A stretch of 64,000 bases of DNA from contig JAJIRX010000730.1 in NCBI GenBank assembly GCA_023853785.1, positions 285,476-349,475 of the forward strand, read 5' to 3'. Both the position numbers and the translations under genes were made by a program. Origin of the DNA: Psilocybe azurescens. Its lineage: Eukaryota; Basidiomycota; Agaricomycetes; Agaricales; Agrocybaceae. Numbering within the stretch: position 1 is the stretch's first letter; each line of letters opens with the position of its first letter. The notes under the pieces were generated by a model. It saw nothing but the letters and a program-made list of their open reading frames with translations. It made no database searches and was not told where the DNA came from. This document shows positions 24,387 through 51,186 of this stretch, piece after piece.

Positions 24387-25169
24387 ATGCTTTTCCGCTC
24401 CGTTGCTACCTGTATTGTGGGCGTACTTTTTACCCAAGGTGCTTTGGCAGCCTTGACACCTGCCCGCCTAGTCACCAGTATTGAGGCTGTGACCGCTGCA
24501 TCCAAAGACGCCAACACCGCCCTGCTGTCAATTTCTACTTCGACTAAGGTGGCCGATGTCAAGACTTCGGGCAAAGTATTATCCCGGCTATACTCAAAAA
24601 GTGTATACTCATATCTAACGATCTCTCTATCCCTTCAAATAGAAACTTGTGGCTGCATTCACGACAATTGTACAAAGTGTCACTGCTGATGTTGCAGCAA
24701 TCAATGTGACGCCCGCTTTTGCTGACGATGCAGCTGATACTGTTGTTAATGCTTTGACCGACGTAAGGGTTTCCCTGATATCCAGGCTTTCCGACAAATC
24801 TAACGCTATTTCATAATCACAGTTCGTTTTAGTGCATCAAATCCTCTTGTCTACGGTTATCGGAAAACATTCCATTTTCGCCCAATTTGCGGTCACCGCG
24901 CCTATTGCTGCGATTCTCCGAGTTCTCGAGGCCCAAGTTGATGTAAGATATGTTTTACACGACACTCGTTCCTATTAGCACTCAAATAACTGTTGTTGCA
25001 GGCTTTGGCATTCGGATTAATAAACTTGATCCCCACCCGCAAGCCAGATGTCCAGGAGAGCAGGAAGAGTCTTGATGCTTCTCTTACAATCGCCGTTTCA
25101 ACTTATCGGGAGGTCTGTATCCCCAGCCCCTTCTATCCCAGCAAGGGCCCTACCTGCGTGTCCGTCTAG
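24387..25169 (+). CDS. Hydrophobic surface-binding protein A (HsbA) family, secreted
   Basis: Exons 24387..24575, 24643..24762, 24823..24942 and 25002..25169, all phase 0, 198 aa. The signal peptide is residues 1-21 (MLFRSVATCIVGVLFTQGAL). The body is an Ala/Val/Thr-rich helical sequence with the family's spacing: SIEAVTAASKDANTALLSIS, KLVAAFTTIVQSVTADVAAI, FAQFAVTAPIAAILRVLEAQ and a C-terminal DVQESRKSLDASLTIAVSTY. HsbA proteins coat hydrophobic surfaces and recruit hydrolases in fungi. It precedes the UstYa-like gene on the same strand, within a block of secreted proteins. Confidence 0.8.
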
Positions 25170-26046
25170 GCGGGGTTTTGTAGAAAACATGGAGTGAGGT
25201 GAAGATATCTACAGTCGTATTATATGCCTTAGTCTTCAATCTTCAATCTTCGTTGTAGCAGGATTTTTGATGTGTTGCCTCCAATTCTTGCTTTTTAGCT
25301 TTCAGTCTCTCATTTTCTTTTTCTACCAACTTCTATACTTGAAGTCGCTTAATATCTTTAATCTCTAGTTATCGATGTTAACCGCAAGTAGAATGGGTCT
25401 ATCATTTGTTGTCCCGGCGTAAAGGAATTGAGAAATAAAAGGGAGGTTGCGCACGACATCCAGGTAGTCATTACACGAGGGTAAACCACGTCATAAAAGC
25501 TGTCATGCACATTAGAATGGGTTACAACTACAACTTTAATCCTATTTAAGCGCTCAGCTCTCAGCCGGGAATTTCAACACCCACCCTTACTGCGGCTGAT
25601 AAATCATAGAGTATACTTATTGCCATCTCGAACGCGAGAACAGCTTTGTCAGTTCAAACCCCTGTCTCTGCCAAGTTGCAGGTCTGAATGTTCGATTCCT
25701 GTTTGACTCTGTATTCAAACCTGTCCCTTCGGGGAATGTCCTAGCGCACAGCATGTTTTCTTCCACATTCGCATCGACGGTTCACACTTTCGTTGCACCG
25801 CATGGGAAATAGATACCGTGACTTGCCAAGTCTATCAGCCGGTGTTCTCCGGTACAAGCGTAGGTGCTGAGGTGCTGATGGTGAGTTATTGGAAGCGAAG
25901 ACTTCCTGAATGCAGTAGAGAGGCTGGTACGGCATATTCACGATTCCATTTGATCCTCTACATGTAAGTCAACCTCATGAGCTTACGTATTCGACATTTA
26001 ATACACGATGGCGGGATTCTGGGAATGCCCTCTTTTGTTTTCGTGT
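25170..26046. other. Intergenic, nothing recognised
   Basis: Nearly 0.9 kb. An alternative upstream in-frame ATG for the next gene sits at 26008. Confidence 0.4.
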
Positions 26047-27073
26047 ATGACAGATACAAGCTATCCAGTTTACTCCCTCCTCTCAGATAAGGATGAGCTG
26101 CTATCTTCAGAGCAGTTGCTTCCGAGTAGCATGTCTCCACGCCCTAGACGGGCATGTTCCAGGAATGCTATCTTCTGGACAACCGCTTTGAATATCGTCT
26201 TTCTTACCGCTGGAGTCCTGTTTTTCCTTGAGGGCGTCCGCCTTCAACGCAACGTTGAATCAGAGTTCATTTCTCGAGTCACATCATTTTGTGAGTTTTA
26301 TTGCATTTTCTGCAACAATAATCGTACTAACAAGTCAATAATTTTAGCTCCTGCATCCGGCGTTATTAGCTACTACCCTCGACTTTTCAATCTTTCTTCA
26401 GAGGAGGCTATGCATTACCAGGGCCATCCTACTCCGGAGATCACAGCAGCCTGGGATAGAATCACGGACGATGGTATTCGTTCAATCGTTTCTTACAATA
26501 GCTATACTTACGCATCTCGTGCTCAGTGCGTCCCATGAGAATCCCAGTGGAAATGCTCCCGCTGGTAAACACTAAAGATGATGAAACTTTAATCAAATTT
26601 GCAGAAGAGGATGGCGGCGGTGTTATGGCATCCGTCGGCGTACTCCACCAACTTCATTGTGTTGTAGGTGGACGAACTACCCAATGTCTATGAAGTCTTA
26701 TAGTACCTTCAGAACCTGCTCCGGAAGGCGACCTATGGCGAATATTACAAGGACGACAGGTTCTTCACCGTGCCCGCAGAGGAGCTCAGAGGACATCTAG
26801 GTACATTTTCACCACATCCAGTACTAGAATATATCATTTAGACTGATATTTTCTCTAGACCATTGCGTCGAATTGCTGAGACAGACCATTTCTTGTGCCG
26901 GAGATGTCACTGTACTCACATATAGGTGGCATGGGGACAAGCCACACCCCAATTTTGACAAGATACACCAATGTCGTCGTTTCGACGATATTTTGGATTG
27001 GGCTCTTGAACACGCGGTGCACATCCCAGCGTCCCACATGGTCAGGAATATAACAGCAGGTGGGTCCCATTAG
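26047..27073 (+). CDS. UstYa-family (DUF3328) oxidase-like protein
   Basis: Exons 26047..26290, 26348..26473, 26527..26663, 26713..26800 and 26859..27073 give 269 aa. A short cytosolic N-terminus is followed by one membrane segment near residues 40-62 (AIFWTTALNIVFLTAGVLFF). The signature of the family, two HxxHC motifs, is complete: HQLHC at residues 164-168 and HLDHC at 197-201. Other shared features are the Trp-Asp motif AAWDRITDD and GDVTVLTYRW. UstYa-type proteins oxidise or cyclise ribosomal peptides (dikaritins) and some other metabolites in the secretory pathway. A repeat precursor with Kex2 sites lies 1.1 kb downstream on the same strand. An in-frame ATG at 26008 would add 13 residues. 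Confidence 0.85.
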
Positions 27074-28059
27074 CTCGGAATGGGCAGATAGTGCAGCTTG
27101 TGTACCGTAGCACGTCATTTTCCGGTCCCGGATCCTTAGGCACTTGCTGTACGATCTTGTATGATTTGTGCTATACATGCACAATACGGAGTAAAAATGA
27201 TTGAATTTAGACATTTGATCATTAACCCCTTGGCCAAGCACCGGTCAGTCAGGGATTCTTAGGACAGGGTTTGCCACTCCTTCGGTCCAATAGACTGCGG
27301 CGCAACATCAGCATGAGAAAAAAGTAAACTAACCATGTATCATTGTCCTACGTGATCTCCAGAAGTGTTGCCACATGAAAATCCTTAGCAAAGTGCGATG
27401 AAGATTGTCATGGTTGGGGATATTATGTTCGCTAATTAACTGGTTCAAAGGGGATAGCGATGGCGCTAATCCCCACACTGTATTCTGCTCCTTGCTCTTT
27501 TGAGTAGCGTTGGGATTGCATTAGATGTTTATGTACTGCCGTTAATAGTGATATTTCGTCATTAGATTTCTCCATACGATCTCTAGTAGGCCATTTCATA
27601 GCGAGTTCTATATCCAGACATGATTGCGTCGGGCTTCATGGATACTATTGGTCAATGGTGGCTGCATTATTTCTCTACAAGCTCTGGACGCACTTGGTAT
27701 TGGGATCGGCCAGCAGATCGTGAAACGCTTCTGATACTTCTCCGGACTAAGAAGCATCCCAGAAGATCTTCTTTGAAATTTGAAGTTTCATAAATGTCGC
27801 TAGGACAGTCGCAATCGACGACAACACTCGGGTCAATAGAATTATGTATCGGCGATATTGCACACTGCACGAAGAATGCACTACGGGTTCGAGTTTTGGC
27901 CGCCTTTCGAAAAAGAAGCAACCTTACACCACTGTTGTAATTGGGCTCTGATCGTATTCTAGAACTGTAAGGCAGACGACTTCTTCAAACATTGAGTCAG
28001 ATGCGATGTTCGAGGATAGCAAGGTGACTAAATAGTTCTTCTTGGCTATGCTATCTGCA
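27074..28059. other. Spacer between UstYa-like gene and precursor gene
   Basis: About 1 kb without a recognised gene. Probably contains the promoter of the precursor gene. Confidence 0.45.
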
Positions 28060-28067
28060 TATAAGAG
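28060..28067 (+). promoter_or_regulatory. TATA-like box of repeat-precursor gene
   Basis: TATAAGAG, 81 bp upstream of the ATG at 28141; the same spacing as at the HsbA-like gene. Confidence 0.45.
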
Positions 28068-28140
28068 CGACTACGACCATTCGTGAAAAACCAGATCCCC
28101 ACACTTGCATATTCTTGCTAGTATCTACTCTCCGTTCACT

Positions 28141-29097
28141 ATGCAATTCAAGAACCTTCTCTTTGCTCTCACCGCCATGTCGGCATTCATGGCGACGGCA
28201 AGCCCCGTTGCCAGCCAGAGTAAGTGGCATATCTGAACTACTGTTTCGATAGCGAACATACTGACTTTTATCCTTGTGAATAGATTCGGAGCAGGGAACC
28301 GCCTTCCGTAGGACTGGTGAGTGTTCTCGCACTGTTCACTTATTGAAGATAATGCCCTAACCACGTTAATGATGCAGATCTCACCACTGGTAAGCTGGTT
28401 CTGACCGTCGACAACGTCGCCCACGTATAACACCTCATCTGTTCCAGCTTCCGAGCAGGGAACCTCCTTCCGTCGTGGCACTGACGCTGAACAAGGCACC
28501 TCTTTCCGCCGTGGTTCGGACGCCGAGCAGGGTACCTCTTTCCGCCGTGGCTCGGACTCCGAGCAAGGTACCTCCTTCCGCAGGGGCTCTGACGCTGAGC
28601 AGGGAACTTCCTTCCGTCGTGGCTCGGATTCCGAGCAGGGAACTTCTTTCCGTCGCGGTTCAGACACTGAGCAAGGCACCTCTTTCCGTCGTGGATCGGA
28701 TGCCGAACAGGGAACCTCCTTCCGCAGGGGTACCGATGCCGAGCAGGGAACTTCCTTCCGCCGTGGCTCTGACACTGAACAGGGAACCTCTTTCCGCCGC
28801 GGCACCGATGCTGAACAAGGTACCTCCTTCCGCCGTGGCTCTGATGGCGAGCAAGGAACGTCCTTCCGTCGTGGCGAAGCCTCTGAGCAGGGAACCTCCT
28901 TCCGCAGAGGCTCAGATTCTGAGCAAGGAACATCTTTCCGCAGGACCGGTGAGTAGTTGTTTCTTCTTACAACTTTATTTGAATTCTAAATCCGTCTGCA
29001 ATTAACAGAGAGTAAGACTTTGCACCCACTGTTTTCAGAGTGAGTTTACTAAACTCTGTTTGATTACCTAGACTCCGAGCAGGGAACCTCTTTCTGA
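28141..29097 (+). CDS. Secreted Kex2-processed repeat precursor, RiPP candidate (216-217 aa)
   Basis: Exons 28141..28219, 28284..28316, 28378..28389, 28448..28948, possibly a 3-nt microexon 29009..29011, and 29072..29097. A signal peptide occupies residues 1-21 (ending MATASPVAS). The rest is 16 units of EQGT(S/A)F, of which the first 15 are followed by Arg-Arg, the Kex2 cleavage signal. Thirteen consecutive cores are decapeptides of the form GSDxEQGTSF, with x being A, S, T or G and a few GTDA or GEAS variants. The last unit stops right after Phe, with no Arg-Arg. Codons vary between units while the residues stay fixed, so the peptide is under selection. The gene is split by introns and lacks internal ATGs, so simple ORF scans miss it. 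With the UstYa-like gene upstream it resembles a dikaritin-type locus. No cyclised product is proven. Confidence 0.8.
28448..28948 (+). repeat. 36-bp tandem coding repeat, 14 units in one exon
   Basis: Fourteen units with a 36-bp period encode the peptide cores and Arg-Arg linkers of the precursor. Two more units lie in the small flanking exons. Long open frames on the opposite strand (28805..28125) and in another forward frame (28475..29005) arise from the repetitive composition and are not genes. Confidence 0.95.
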
Positions 29098-32711
<3,614 letters not shown>

Positions 32712-46104: not shown

Positions 46105-47529
46105 ATGGTGGACTCCGTTGGAGTCGATACGGCGACACTCGCTGCCTTCTTCGTGGAGGCTGTGCTTTATGGTGCTCACTGTGGATTACGGTTCAATATC
46201 ATGGCCAATGTCTAACAAAGTATTTGTCCACAGGCCTTCTCATTGTCTTGTTCGCGGCATCTATAGCAGTAATATTTCGGAGGTCAAGAATGTTGAAGGA
46301 TCCTCTCAACAAACCCATGATCGTCGCATCAGTTCTGATGTTGATTTTGGCTACAGTTGTGAGTCTTCCTCTGTTGAAGGCCGATGATGGCTGATCGCGT
46401 CTGCATCTTACCCCGGTTTAACAGCACATTTCCGCTGATTTTAGAAGACTTCTGGATGCATTTGTTCGACACTCGTCCCATACAACGGAAGGTACAAAGG
46501 CGTATCTCAGACGAGTGAGTGCCCCGACCTACCTACTGCAAAGCACCGCCTATGGGATGCAAACGCTCGTCGGAGATGCGTTTATGGTGAGATTTCTACA
46601 TTCATCCATTACTAGTGGTAGCAGATCACCGATATTAGGTGTCCTTCACGTCAGCTATATCGAGTATACCTCGTCTGGAATGGCAATAGGTGGATTGTTC
46701 TGCCACTTTTGGTTTGCTATATTGCCAGTGCGGGTAAGCAGATTCTGCATAATTGTAGTATGTGTTGTAAACTCACAGTGAATACAGCCGCTGGACTGGG
46801 CGCTGTTCAAGGATTCGCTCGGGCTACCCTCCACGACTCCATCTTCAACGGATCCCTCATGCAATGGAGCGTTTCATTCTTCGTGCTCACGCTATTTACG
46901 AACTTCACATGTACATGTCAGTCATAAGTTCTTCCCGATGTCATGGGGTATCTCGAGCCAGAAAACTGACCCGCGGTCGTAACAGTGTTGATCGCCTCCC
47001 GCATATGGTGGATTCATCGAAGGATGAAAACAATAGTATCTGGCGAAAGTATGCTACCGGCAATGGTCATAATCATCGAGTCAGGGTCCCTGTACTCAGC
47101 CTGCCTGATAATTCTGCTAGCGACATACATCGCTAAAAGTTACCTACAGTATATTGCGCTTGCTGCGGTACGTGACTAGTGATCAGATCTTCGATCCATT
47201 TCTATATGTTGGCTGACTATGAATAAATCGGATTTTTGCTTCTAGGTTACACAATGCATCGTGAGTTCTGTAGGCGTCTTGGGACCTCAACCGTTACTCA
47301 TTGTGATTCGTCTCACTAGGGAATAGCGTTTTCCATGGTAATACTCCGTGTCGCACTAGGAATATCCAATGAATCAGGCAAGGCTCGCACCCAAAGAATC
47401 ACAACTCTAGCATTCGGTCCTGCAGCAGATGTGGAGACAACGACCACGGACGACTCGGAGCCGCGTTTCACCATCGGTCTTGAACCTTCACGAGTTTATA
47501 TGGCAGCAGCTAGGAAGATAGGAGAGTAA
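46105..47529 (+). CDS. Multi-pass (about 7-TM) membrane protein, Agaricomycete family
   Basis: Exons 46105..46171, 46234..46358, 46425..46586, 46655..46733, 46788..46916, 46986..47167, 47246..47260 (15 nt) and 47320..47529, all in phase, give 322 aa. Hydrophobic helices are seen in order: TATLAAFFVEAVLYGLLIVL, KPMIVASVLMLILATV, a central helix before VYLVWNGNRWIVLP, WSVSFFVLTLFTNFT, ACLIILLATYIAK and GIAFSMVILRVALGI. Motifs such as YRVYLVWN and ESGSLYSACLI mark a common uncharacterised mushroom membrane-protein family of receptor-like layout. Ligand and function are unknown. Confidence 0.82.
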
Positions 47530-48248: not shown

Positions 48249-51117
48249 CTCCCCTTCAAGTTGTGCGCAATCCGAGAGCCGCCGCGAAATGTTTCGCTTT
48301 GATGCTGGGTAACGCTTTGGTGAGTGTATCAGCAGCCATGTTGTCCGTAGGGCAGTAGATCAATTTGATAGCGCCCTCGTCGATGATGTAGCGAATAAAA
48401 TGATAGCGTATATCGATGTGCTTGGTGCGGGCATGATAGTGTCCGTCGCTGGCGAGTGCGATGGCTGACTGACTGTCAGAGAAGAGAGTTGTGGGTTCGG
48501 AAAGTGGGGTGAATAACTCCCCTAGAAGTCGGCGAAGCCAGATGGCTTCTTTGGCGGCGTGCGTTTGGGCGACGTACTTGGCCTCCGTGGTTGAAAGTGT
48601 AACGAGCTCTTGTTTCTTCGAGGACCAGGAGACGGCGCCGCCGTCAATGAGAAATACATAGCCTGAAATAGCGCGTCTGTGATCTTGGGAGGAACCGTCG
48701 GCGTCGACGTAGCCTTCCAGGCCTCGATTGATGCCGCCGTATATGAGTTCGAGCTGCTGGGTCCCCTTGAGATAACGAAATATCGTTTTTACCGCTTCCC
48801 AGTGGTCCCACCCGGGGTTGTTGCAGAAACGCGCACAGGTAGAGACGGTGAATGCGATGTCGGAGCGGGTGCCAGTTGCAGCGTAATTAAGAGAGCCCAC
48901 GGCTTCTCGGTACGGTACGTGCTTCATTTTCTCGATGTCGGCAACGCGCGTTGGGCATTGAGATTCGCTGAGGATGATGTTGGGATGCATGGGGACTGCA
49001 GACGGCTTGAGGTCGTTGAAGTTGAAATGCGTAATAATACTTTTGATGTAAGCGTGTTGGGATAATGCGATAGTGCGTTCCTTTCGATTGCGAGTGACCT
49101 TGATTCCTAAGAGCCATTCAACGGGTCCTAGGTCCGTAAGCTTGTATTTCTTGTGCATGTTGGCCTTGAAAGCGGCGATGAGGGAAGGGGAAGTGCCTGT
49201 AATGAGGCAATCGTCGACATGGACAGCTAGGAAGAGGGAATCTTTCCCTGTCTTCTTTACGAAGACGCCATGATCTGCTTCTGTACGAACAAACCCGAAA
49301 TCAATAAGCGCTTTGTGAAGAGCGTCATACCAATTTTTAGCTCCCTGTTTGAGACCATACAAGGTCTTCTTGAGCTTCCAGACGTGAGTGCGACTGTTTT
49401 CTGTCGCGTAGTGGGCGGGCTGTTCTAGGTAAGTCTCTTCATGCTCCCCCCAAAGTGCTATTGAGGTAGGCTGTGTCGAAATCGAAGCTGTCGCAAGGCC
49501 AATCGTTACGCGCTGCAAGTGCGAGGAGGATTCGGAAGCTGGTGATTTTGGCAACAGGTGAGTACGTTTCGAGGTAGTCAATTCCGTAAATTTGAGTAAA
49601 ACCCTTAGCTACGAGCCGTGCTTTGTATTTATCGATTTCACCTGCAGAGTTCTTCTTGATCCGGAGAACCCATCGACACTTGATAATGTTCGTTCCTTTG
49701 GGTGGACGTTCGACGACCTGGTAGGTGTTATTTCGCTTCAGGGATTCCAATTCCCTTTGATCGCTTCATCCCATTTAGGCCAATCCGCACAGGATCGAGC
49801 TTCCTCAAACGTTGGGGTTAGCCCTTCCGCCCCAGCCATTACAGCTGACATGGCATGTTCAGCCACCTCCACCATCTCCCATTCATCCTCTTCCTCATTT
49901 GCCATTCCTCCACTTTCTTTCGCCTCCTGCACACCTTTTGGCAAAAGCGACGCTGACGGGCGTGCGCTCGTAAGGCCAACGCCTTCTCGAAGACGACGGA
50001 CGTAGTTGGATTCGGTGCGAATGCAGGAGCTGCGACGTGGTTGGAAGTCGTCGACAGGGACGTGGTCGGTAGGCTCCGCCATATCTTCGTCCTCGTCTTC
50101 CTCTTCATTAACATCTTCAACGGTGGCCTTAGTGGGCGCTTCTGTTTTAGGAGAATGTGGCGTGGCAGGATGGCTGGTGGCGGTGGGATTGGGATCGGCG
50201 TCGGTTACCGCATCAGGATATGTGGACGCGTCGACGACGACCTCTTCCTCGATGTTGAACTTAACGCTGCGTTCGACTGTAACGGAGCGCTTTTCTGGCC
50301 AGTATACTCGGTGAGCATTGGATTCTTCATCGAACCCGACCCAGAATCCTAACTTCGATCTAGGGCCCAACTTGTTGTTCTTGGCGTCGTGTACACGAAC
50401 GCGGCATCCCCATATTGGCAAGTTGGTGAGGTCGGGCTTGTTTGAGGTGAATACCTCGTACGGCGTGGCATTGTCGAGGGTACGTGTCCAGGTTCGATTC
50501 TTCAGGTATACTGCATGACGTACAGCTTCAGCCCAAAGGAAGTTCGGCAATTTGCTGTCATGCAACATTGCTCGAACCTTTGCCAGGAGAGTTCGATTGA
50601 GGCGTTCCGCAACGCCGTTGTATTCAGGCGTATCGTGTACGGTGAGTGCTCGTATGGTACCCTGTGTCTTCAGATGCGTTGAGAATTCTGTACTGAGAAA
50701 TTCTCCCCCTCGATCTGAGTGTAGCATCTTGATCAGTATGCCGAACTGGGTGAAAAGCCAAGCCTCGTATTCAAGATAGGCCTCGAAGGTTTCGTCCTTC
50801 GTGCGTAGGAAATAGACGTTAGTGAATCTGCTGTGGTCATCTGTGAAGCTGACATAGTAACGCATCCGGTTTATAGACTCAACCGGTGCTGGTCCCCACA
50901 GATCCGAATGGATTTCGTCGCCAACGGCGTCTGCTCGCTCGCTGGCTTTTTCCCTGCGTATCGCCTTTCGTTGCCCCTTTGCCCACTCACAACTTTCGCA
51001 TACAGATGGTTTGCTCGTGGGATCAAGCTCTACACCGAGCACTAGGTCGTTGTCAATGAGATATTTCGCTCGTGCATGGGAGACATGCCCAAGCACTGTG
51101 GGAAGCCAGCTCGGCAT
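48249..51117 (-). mobile_element. 5'-truncated Ty1/Copia retrotransposon, pol region, frameshifted
   Basis: Minus-strand coding covers, in order, a partial pre-integrase segment (LGHVSHARAKYL with CESCEWAKGQRK), integrase (LHSDRGGEFLSTEF, GVAERLNRTLLAKVRAML), reverse transcriptase (CRWVLRIKKNS, KARLVAKGFTQIYGIDYLET, LAVHVDDCLITG) and RNase H (LVTLSTTEAKYVAQTHAAKE, RTKHIDIRYHFIRYI). It ends at 48256, abutting the LTR. The coding frame breaks twice, at GGG (49753-49755) and at G6 (49446-49451). Gag, protease and the 5' LTR are absent; the left break is at about 51118-51130. A recent but defective copy. Confidence 0.9.
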
Positions 51118-51186
51118 TTGTTCATGTGCCTAGTTTGCCAATAAATAGTGTGCCCAGCCGCCATCAGATCATTATGTTCTGACACC

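Follow-up and report, generated by a model that had tools for sequence, protein, structure and literature searches.

The window analysed here, a stretch of 64,000 nucleotides from the basidiomycete Psilocybe azurescens, carries a gene for a UstYa-family (DUF3328) oxidase and, further along the same strand, a gene for a Kex2-processed repeat protein (KEP); the same pair of genes is found a second time in the genome. The best explanation of this arrangement, and one that we hold to be reasonably probable, is that the two genes form a minimal cassette for a dikaritin-type RiPP (ribosomally synthesized and post-translationally modified peptide). The mushroom would then probably make a small modified peptide of a kind characterised mainly in moulds. 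A duplicated and selected unit of one oxidase and one precursor, whose peptide masses can be calculated, makes the question of basidiomycete dikaritins directly testable. If the core peptide is modified, this would be UstYa chemistry on a core without Tyr, Trp or His, and the pair would be a compact cassette for peptide engineering.

The oxidase-precursor pair is duplicated in the genome

The genome search covered the window's own assembly (70 Mb, 937 contigs), in which the window belongs to contig C623. A second UstYa and KEP pair, in the same order and orientation as in the window and with different neighbours, was found on contig C625. There, the UstYa paralogue (C625:43368-44394, minus strand) has the exon structure of the window gene and is followed by the KEP paralogue (C625:40849-42345, minus strand), which has 20 units, 19 of them with Arg-Arg (RR). 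When the whole window was compared by blastn with 20 kb of C625, homology was confined approximately to window positions 25985-29098, i.e. both genes and part of the intergenic space; the sole further match was at 46653-47118 (477 columns, 64%). The two UstYa proteins are 88.1% identical (237/269), and the NG86 method gave a dS of 0.99 and a dN of 0.059 for their genes. Next to the window copy lies a methionyl-tRNA synthetase (MetRS) gene with one match in the assembly, and next to the C625 copy a GH31 gene whose other assembly matches are 68-74% alike. On one side of each copy, the flanking DNA thus occurs only once at high identity, which shows that these are not two alleles of one locus; the single-copy MetRS flank together with the UstYa dS of about 1.0 rules that reading out.

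Judged from the assembly, UstYa plus KEP is a duplicated two-gene cassette. Because the two genes were duplicated together, because both copies read intact and because the enzyme and the core are under purifying selection, the sequences indicate that these genes have long been a functional unit kept by selection, and not a chance adjacency. The preliminary description, made from the letters of the window alone, had supposed that oxidase and precursor work together: joint duplication, intact copies and purifying selection all speak for it, and the C625 duplication is the strongest evidence. No conservation of a promoter was apparent, as the UstYa-KEP intergenic stretch (62% identical between copies) is no better kept than the introns (58-69%). 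One short segment upstream of the KEP gene (window ~27806-27840, around GTCGCAATCGACGACA) looks by eye, in the alignment, better conserved between the copies than the remaining intergenic DNA.

The oxidase gene

The UstYa-family gene lies at 26047-27073 (+ strand). It was modelled with five exons (26047-26290, 26348-26473, 26527-26663, 26713-26800 and 26859-27073) that encode 269 aa, and the four introns all have GT..AG borders. The PF11807 UstYa profile matches the protein with 179.2 bits (E = 1.4e-52) over profile positions 7-220 of 220. Two HxxHC motifs are present, HQLHC (residues 164-168) and HLDHC (197-201); within them, H164, Q165, H167, C168, H197, H200 and C201 do not vary across an alignment of 14 sequences. 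A UstYa/DUF3328 protein with two HXXHC motifs is given as class-defining for dikaritins (PMC12048977), and by its predicted sequence the window gene encodes such a protein. An N-terminal membrane helix can be read by eye. A search of PDB sequences with the protein revealed no close relative, the single match having an E value of 0.98.

The repeat precursor gene

The KEP gene (28141-29097, + strand, 216 aa) starts 1067 bases (~1.07 kb) past the UstYa stop codon. Its modelled splicing gives five exons: 28141-28219, 28284-28316, 28378-28389, 28448-28948 and 29072-29097. The N-terminus of the product, MQFKNLLFALTAMSAFMATA.., resembles a signal peptide by eye, with a leader MQFKNLLFALTAMSAFMATAS (28141-28203, + strand) read from the translation; residues 1-25 (MQFKNLLFALTAMSAFMATASPVAS) are identical between the window copy and the C625 paralogue. 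The body of the protein consists of 16 units, 15 with EQGTSF and one, the first, with EQGTAF; RR follows 15 of the 16, and a stop codon follows the last. The two genes are therefore as first reported: an oxidase gene with both HxxHC motifs and, ~1.1 kb downstream on the same strand, a repeat protein of 16 EQGT(S/A)F units of which 15 have Arg-Arg.

The main array of 36-base units (28453-28941, + strand) reads mostly G(S/T)D(A/S/T/G)-EQGTSF-RR with a constant EQGTSF core, and was independently detected by TRF (period 36, score 439; period 108, score 537). When run on base-shuffled sequence (3 x 132 kb), a loose scanner for repeated dibasic units gave no match. The predicted protein has the features of a KEP, namely a secretion leader (judged by eye) and repeats with dibasic Kex2 sites, and those of a dikaritin precursor, namely repeated cores with such sites (RR in 15/16 units). 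The antisense strand of the array likewise contains long open frames (286 and 208 aa), a reading disfavoured by the codon pattern. In 13 window units, the variable columns comprise 11 of 12 third codon positions and 3 of 12 each of the first and second positions; because the variation is mostly at third positions, the KEP frame is under coding constraint. The Pfam matches of the protein, RDM3_C (29.5 bits, cut-off 35) and Collagen (27.3 versus 27.2), were taken as low-complexity matches.

A candidate 3-base microexon (AGA, 29009-29011, + strand) was modelled between exons 4 and 5. With it, the last unit reads RRTENSEQGTSF; if it is skipped, RRTDSEQGTSF. Four 3-base candidates were modelled in the C625 KEP gene, where one further unit has the corresponding bases fused to an exon. 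In both copies the candidates are AGA or AGG between AG and GTA.

Selection on core and spacer

In the 36 units of the two copies, EQGTSF occurs 34 times and EQGTAF and DQGTSF once each, although synonymous change is heavy. Phe is present in all 36 and is the only aromatic residue of the core, Tyr being found in none, and RR ends all 34 internal units. Between the copies, pN/pS was 0.008 for the EQGTSF core versus 0.26 for the four spacer residues (26 of the 36 units, 13 + 13 with a full in-exon spacer, the 10 exon-edge units being left out); these figures are descriptive, as the repeat units within a gene are non-independent and possibly homogenised by recombination. The 'pN' of 0.11 for RR is an artefact of multi-step paths between Arg codons: zero Arg was replaced. 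By the dN, dS and pN/pS estimates, strong purifying selection acts on UstYa as well as on the EQGTSF core. Since pN/pS is far lower in the core than in the spacer, EQGTSF is the retained part, and G(S/T)D(A/S/T/G) looks like a spacer or recognition stretch. Of the product form first proposed, GSDxEQGTSF, it is the EQGTSF portion that is conserved; the GSDx portion varies.

After RR, the 26 units continue with GS, GT or GE, and the exon-edge units with TD/TE, SK/SN or AE/AD. An XA or XP dipeptide follows RR in none of the window or C625 units; therefore, the units are not direct Ste13 substrates.

Relatives of the oxidase

The window UstYa is identical at 239 of 241 positions to a Psilocybe cyanescens protein, P0001 (CVT25_013893), whose model retains the first intron of the window gene as coding sequence. 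The C625 UstYa is identical at 227 of 232 positions to P0002 (P. cyanescens CVT25_013887, labelled LOW QUALITY PROTEIN). These matches place the genome in P. cyanescens or a very close relative, so that P0001 and P0002 do not provide an independent test of conservation. The two are both recorded on a contig of 66,775 bases and hence probably on the same one. One UstYa orthologue from Psilocybe cubensis is found among the matches (P0003, 158 of 195 positions identical). As a small tree rooted on P0004 and P0006 puts P0003 outside both copies (support 0.83), the sequences suggest a duplication after the P. cubensis lineage had branched off. The preliminary description had counted on the gene pair being present in close relatives; this was borne out for the UstYa part, by the P. 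cyanescens matches to both copies and by the single orthologue of P. cubensis, the one clearly separate species.

Proposed product and comparison with known systems

We infer the secretion, cutting and modification of the product, as well as its chemistry, from the sequence. The repeat protein would be secreted and cut after each RR by Kex2, and the carboxypeptidase Kex1 would trim the fragments to about 16 peptides, mostly G(S/T)D(A/S/T)EQGTSF. The constant EQGTSF part would then be oxidised by the membrane-anchored UstYa protein. One possible result is a cross-link from the side chain of the C-terminal Phe, such as victorin has, whose core, GLKLAF, is Tyr-free; others are a cross-link through Thr/Ser and a desaturation or hydroxylation without ring. 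The variable GSDx would be a spacer or recognition stretch, trimmed later or kept. A fuller version of this proposal is that the locus encodes a basidiomycete dikaritin from the smallest cluster, that UstYa equips EQGTSF with a cross-link not involving Tyr or with a dehydroamino acid (probably at Phe or Ser/Thr) and that the cassette was duplicated in the P. cyanescens lineage; taken together, these statements are tentative, and we put them somewhat below an even chance.

The order of steps (secretion, Kex2 cutting, trimming, UstYa oxidation) is the one described for dikaritins (PMC6514808, PMC9233826, PMC10512285). By analogy, a Tyr-free core that ends in Phe is compatible with UstYa chemistry, because the phomopsin UstYa proteins are reported to carry out amino acid desaturation as well as cyclisation (PMC10512285) and because victorin closes its ring via a C-terminal Phe. 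In that Cochliobolus victoriae system, which also has a multi-core precursor, the side chain of the terminal Phe is joined to an internal Leu (PMC9233826), so that closure at this position has a precedent. Victorin differs from the putative window product in coming from an ascomycete, in its cluster-encoded peptidases and chlorination (PMC9233826) and in its core sequence.

In having a single UstYa protein, the window cassette appears most like that of asperipin-2a from Aspergillus flavus (aprA, aprY, aprT, aprR), where a multi-core precursor is likewise accompanied by one UstYa-type oxidase and the core is the hexapeptide FYYTGY (PMC6514808). Unlike the window core, this one has three Tyr whose side chains form ether links; the host is an ascomycete, and the cluster contains transporter and reductase genes, neither of which is seen at the window locus. 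The ustiloxin B system (ustA, ustYa, ustYb, ustQ) shares with the window a 16-fold repeat precursor, the UstYa family and cores that lie between acidic residues and a dibasic Kex2 site: in UstA, 16 YAIG cores are flanked by ED and KR, and the Kex2 cut is thought to precede cyclisation (PMC6514808). It differs by its Tyr-bearing core, by its two UstY proteins, tyrosinase, methyltransferase and other enzymes, by having KR where the window KEP has RR, and by its repeat sequence.

The kind of gene pairing is known already; what is added here is the evolutionary evidence and the unusual core. In a survey of 1461 strains (Umemura 2020, PMC7329392), DUF3328 genes were found enriched beside KEP genes, at an average spacing of 3.09 genes and with a maximum at the adjacent position. 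They neighboured 103 of 1680 KEPs in Basidiomycota versus 1647 of 5372 in Ascomycota. The earlier remark that such loci are little described in basidiomycetes has to be qualified in view of these 103 cases and of the presence of Psilocybe in two of the DUF3328-accompanied types, G-5/P-1 and P-3. Both types differ from the window KEP, the former containing Y and the latter W with P. There is no word starting with EQG or TSF in the main text of the survey, and the window KEP may already be in its supplementary lists. Tyr was present in 65.6% of the repeated sequences of DUF3328-accompanied KEPs, so Tyr-free cores are a known minority. Concerning basidiomycetes, the survey proposes that either the motif of the cyclisation factor differs or KEP cyclisation hardly occurs. 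The characterised dikaritins are placed in ascomycetes by PMC9233826, PMC12048977 and PMC10512285; in titles and abstract starts of the open-access literature, neither an EQGTSF peptide nor a chemically characterised basidiomycete dikaritin was reported among the matches listed. For Pleurotus ostreatus, 16 UstYa-like genes are reported, and 6 of these show developmental expression (PMC8893723).

Alternative explanations

Several observations weigh against a dikaritin-type product. The core is without Tyr, the residue through which ustiloxin, phomopsin and asperipin are linked. Pfam detected no P450, methyltransferase, tyrosinase, peptidase or transporter domain in 26 window and 10 C625 open reading frames (ORFs), of which 10 and 5, respectively, had any match, single-frame ORFs being liable to miss intron-rich genes. 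With one UstYa gene per locus, the usual extras of dikaritin clusters (tyrosinase, methyltransferase, several DUF3328 genes, transporter, peptidase) appear to be lacking; a list of dikaritin-cluster genes by Ding is quoted in PMC12048977, according to which later clusters are without one or more of them. The cassette looks minimal because no further tailoring genes are seen among the tested ORFs. In the protein database, the whole KEP had no homologue at E <= 1 among the 8000 best-sharing candidates, and its residues 1-60 none at E <= 10 among 8 candidates; the candidates were proteins of similar length only, short-exon repeat genes may go unannotated, and the absence is weak evidence. As far as the sequences go, conservation of the UstYa-KEP pair is seen in this genome alone. 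The P0002 model breaks up the second HxxHC region, where the C625 oxidase copy may be damaged or mis-modelled. Lastly, the KEP peptides of Coprinopsis, Lentinula and Pleurotus, which also derive from secreted Kex2-cut repeat proteins of mushrooms, are described as linear and minimally modified (Vogt et al. 2022, PMC9769878), and the main text of that paper contains neither DUF3328 nor UstY.

This last point favours a different outcome, in which the peptides released from the KEP stay linear and unmodified (as signal, hormone-like or defence peptides) while UstYa has another substrate or its adjacency is only regulatory. We consider this unlikely, though worth serious attention: a DUF3328 neighbour is recorded for only 6.1% of basidiomycete KEPs (PMC7329392), and an alpha-factor-like KEP of the same genome (NPTW-KR-EAEA, contig C600) is on a contig without UstYa match. 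However, the window pair was duplicated jointly to a new place, with both genes intact at a UstYa dS of about 1, and the window KEP does not have the EAEA (Ste13) signature of the C600 KEP. It is improbable that the repeat protein is a structural or surface protein, secreted uncut or partly cut, with UstYa modifying the polymer or nothing. The hydrophilic and highly regular repeat would agree with such a role, for which the Rep1 peptides of Ustilago maydis offer a comparison (PMC9769878), and so would the gene for a secreted protein of the HsbA type (hydrophobic surface binding protein A) that precedes the UstYa gene by ~0.9 kb. But RR at the end of every internal unit (34/34 over both copies) is what a Kex2 site predicts, and next to the C625 copy the 10 ORFs tested gave no HsbA match. 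Finally, an ordinary UstYa paralogue could by chance lie next to an unrelated repeat gene. UstYa genes are numerous in this genome (at least 28 matches on 13 contigs), and finding one next to a KEP gene is by itself weak evidence; yet the same KEP stands beside the same close UstYa pair on C623 and C625, the other UstYa loci are at most ~40% identical to the window UstYa (tblastn), and scanning around the UstYa matches of the 11 other contigs, with short flanks on 6, revealed no KEP-like repeat. This last reading is very improbable, being close to refuted by the C625 copy.

Neighbouring genes, other UstYa loci and processing genes

Near the window pair, Pfam recognised HsbA, F-box-like (below cut-off), hexokinase, MetRS, DUF202, RTC4-like and a retroelement, and beside the C625 pair GH31 and lysophospholipase. 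The HsbA-type gene was spliced by hand (window 24387-25169, + strand; 34.4 bits versus a cut-off of 33.5). The retroelement is of the Ty1/copia type (window 48256-51129, minus strand), with RVT_2 and SH3_retrovirus matches and rve and gag_pre-integrs below cut-off.

The UstYa list is a lower bound drawn from 33 scored candidates. The scan for KEP-like repeats covered 10-40 kb on C538, C500, C723, C250 and C641, and pieces of 3.1-3.4 kb around the matches on C434, C148, C664, C665, C438 and C40 (~8 kb together on C438 and C40); as the scanner handles one open frame at a time, a KEP divided among many exons could escape it. Four clustered UstYa matches are present at C40:12003-17018 and again at C538:40585-45603, without KEP-like repeat in the scanned DNA. 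The compared pieces are 99.7-99.9% identical, and the two clusters are probably uncollapsed alleles, as are found elsewhere in the assembly (C148/C664, 98.6%). At C438:936029-941100, covered with about 1.5 kb of flank on either side, four further UstYa matches are clustered, on mixed strands.

As for processing genes, the kexin P-domain has 4 matches in the genome, on C738 and C155, and there is one DPPIV_N (Ste13-type) gene, on C550. The second KEP type, at C600:168676-169444 (+ strand), has a leader, MRVSVITLLSAFTLVLAAPI, and 14 units that mostly read NPTW, with KR or RR and EAEA(EA)n between them; this is the architecture of ascomycete alpha-pheromone precursors, here in a basidiomycete. 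With its KR-EAEA it is of the alpha-factor (Ste13) type, unlike the window KEP, and it may correspond to Umemura type P-3 (W with P; Galerina, Psilocybe, Coprinellus).

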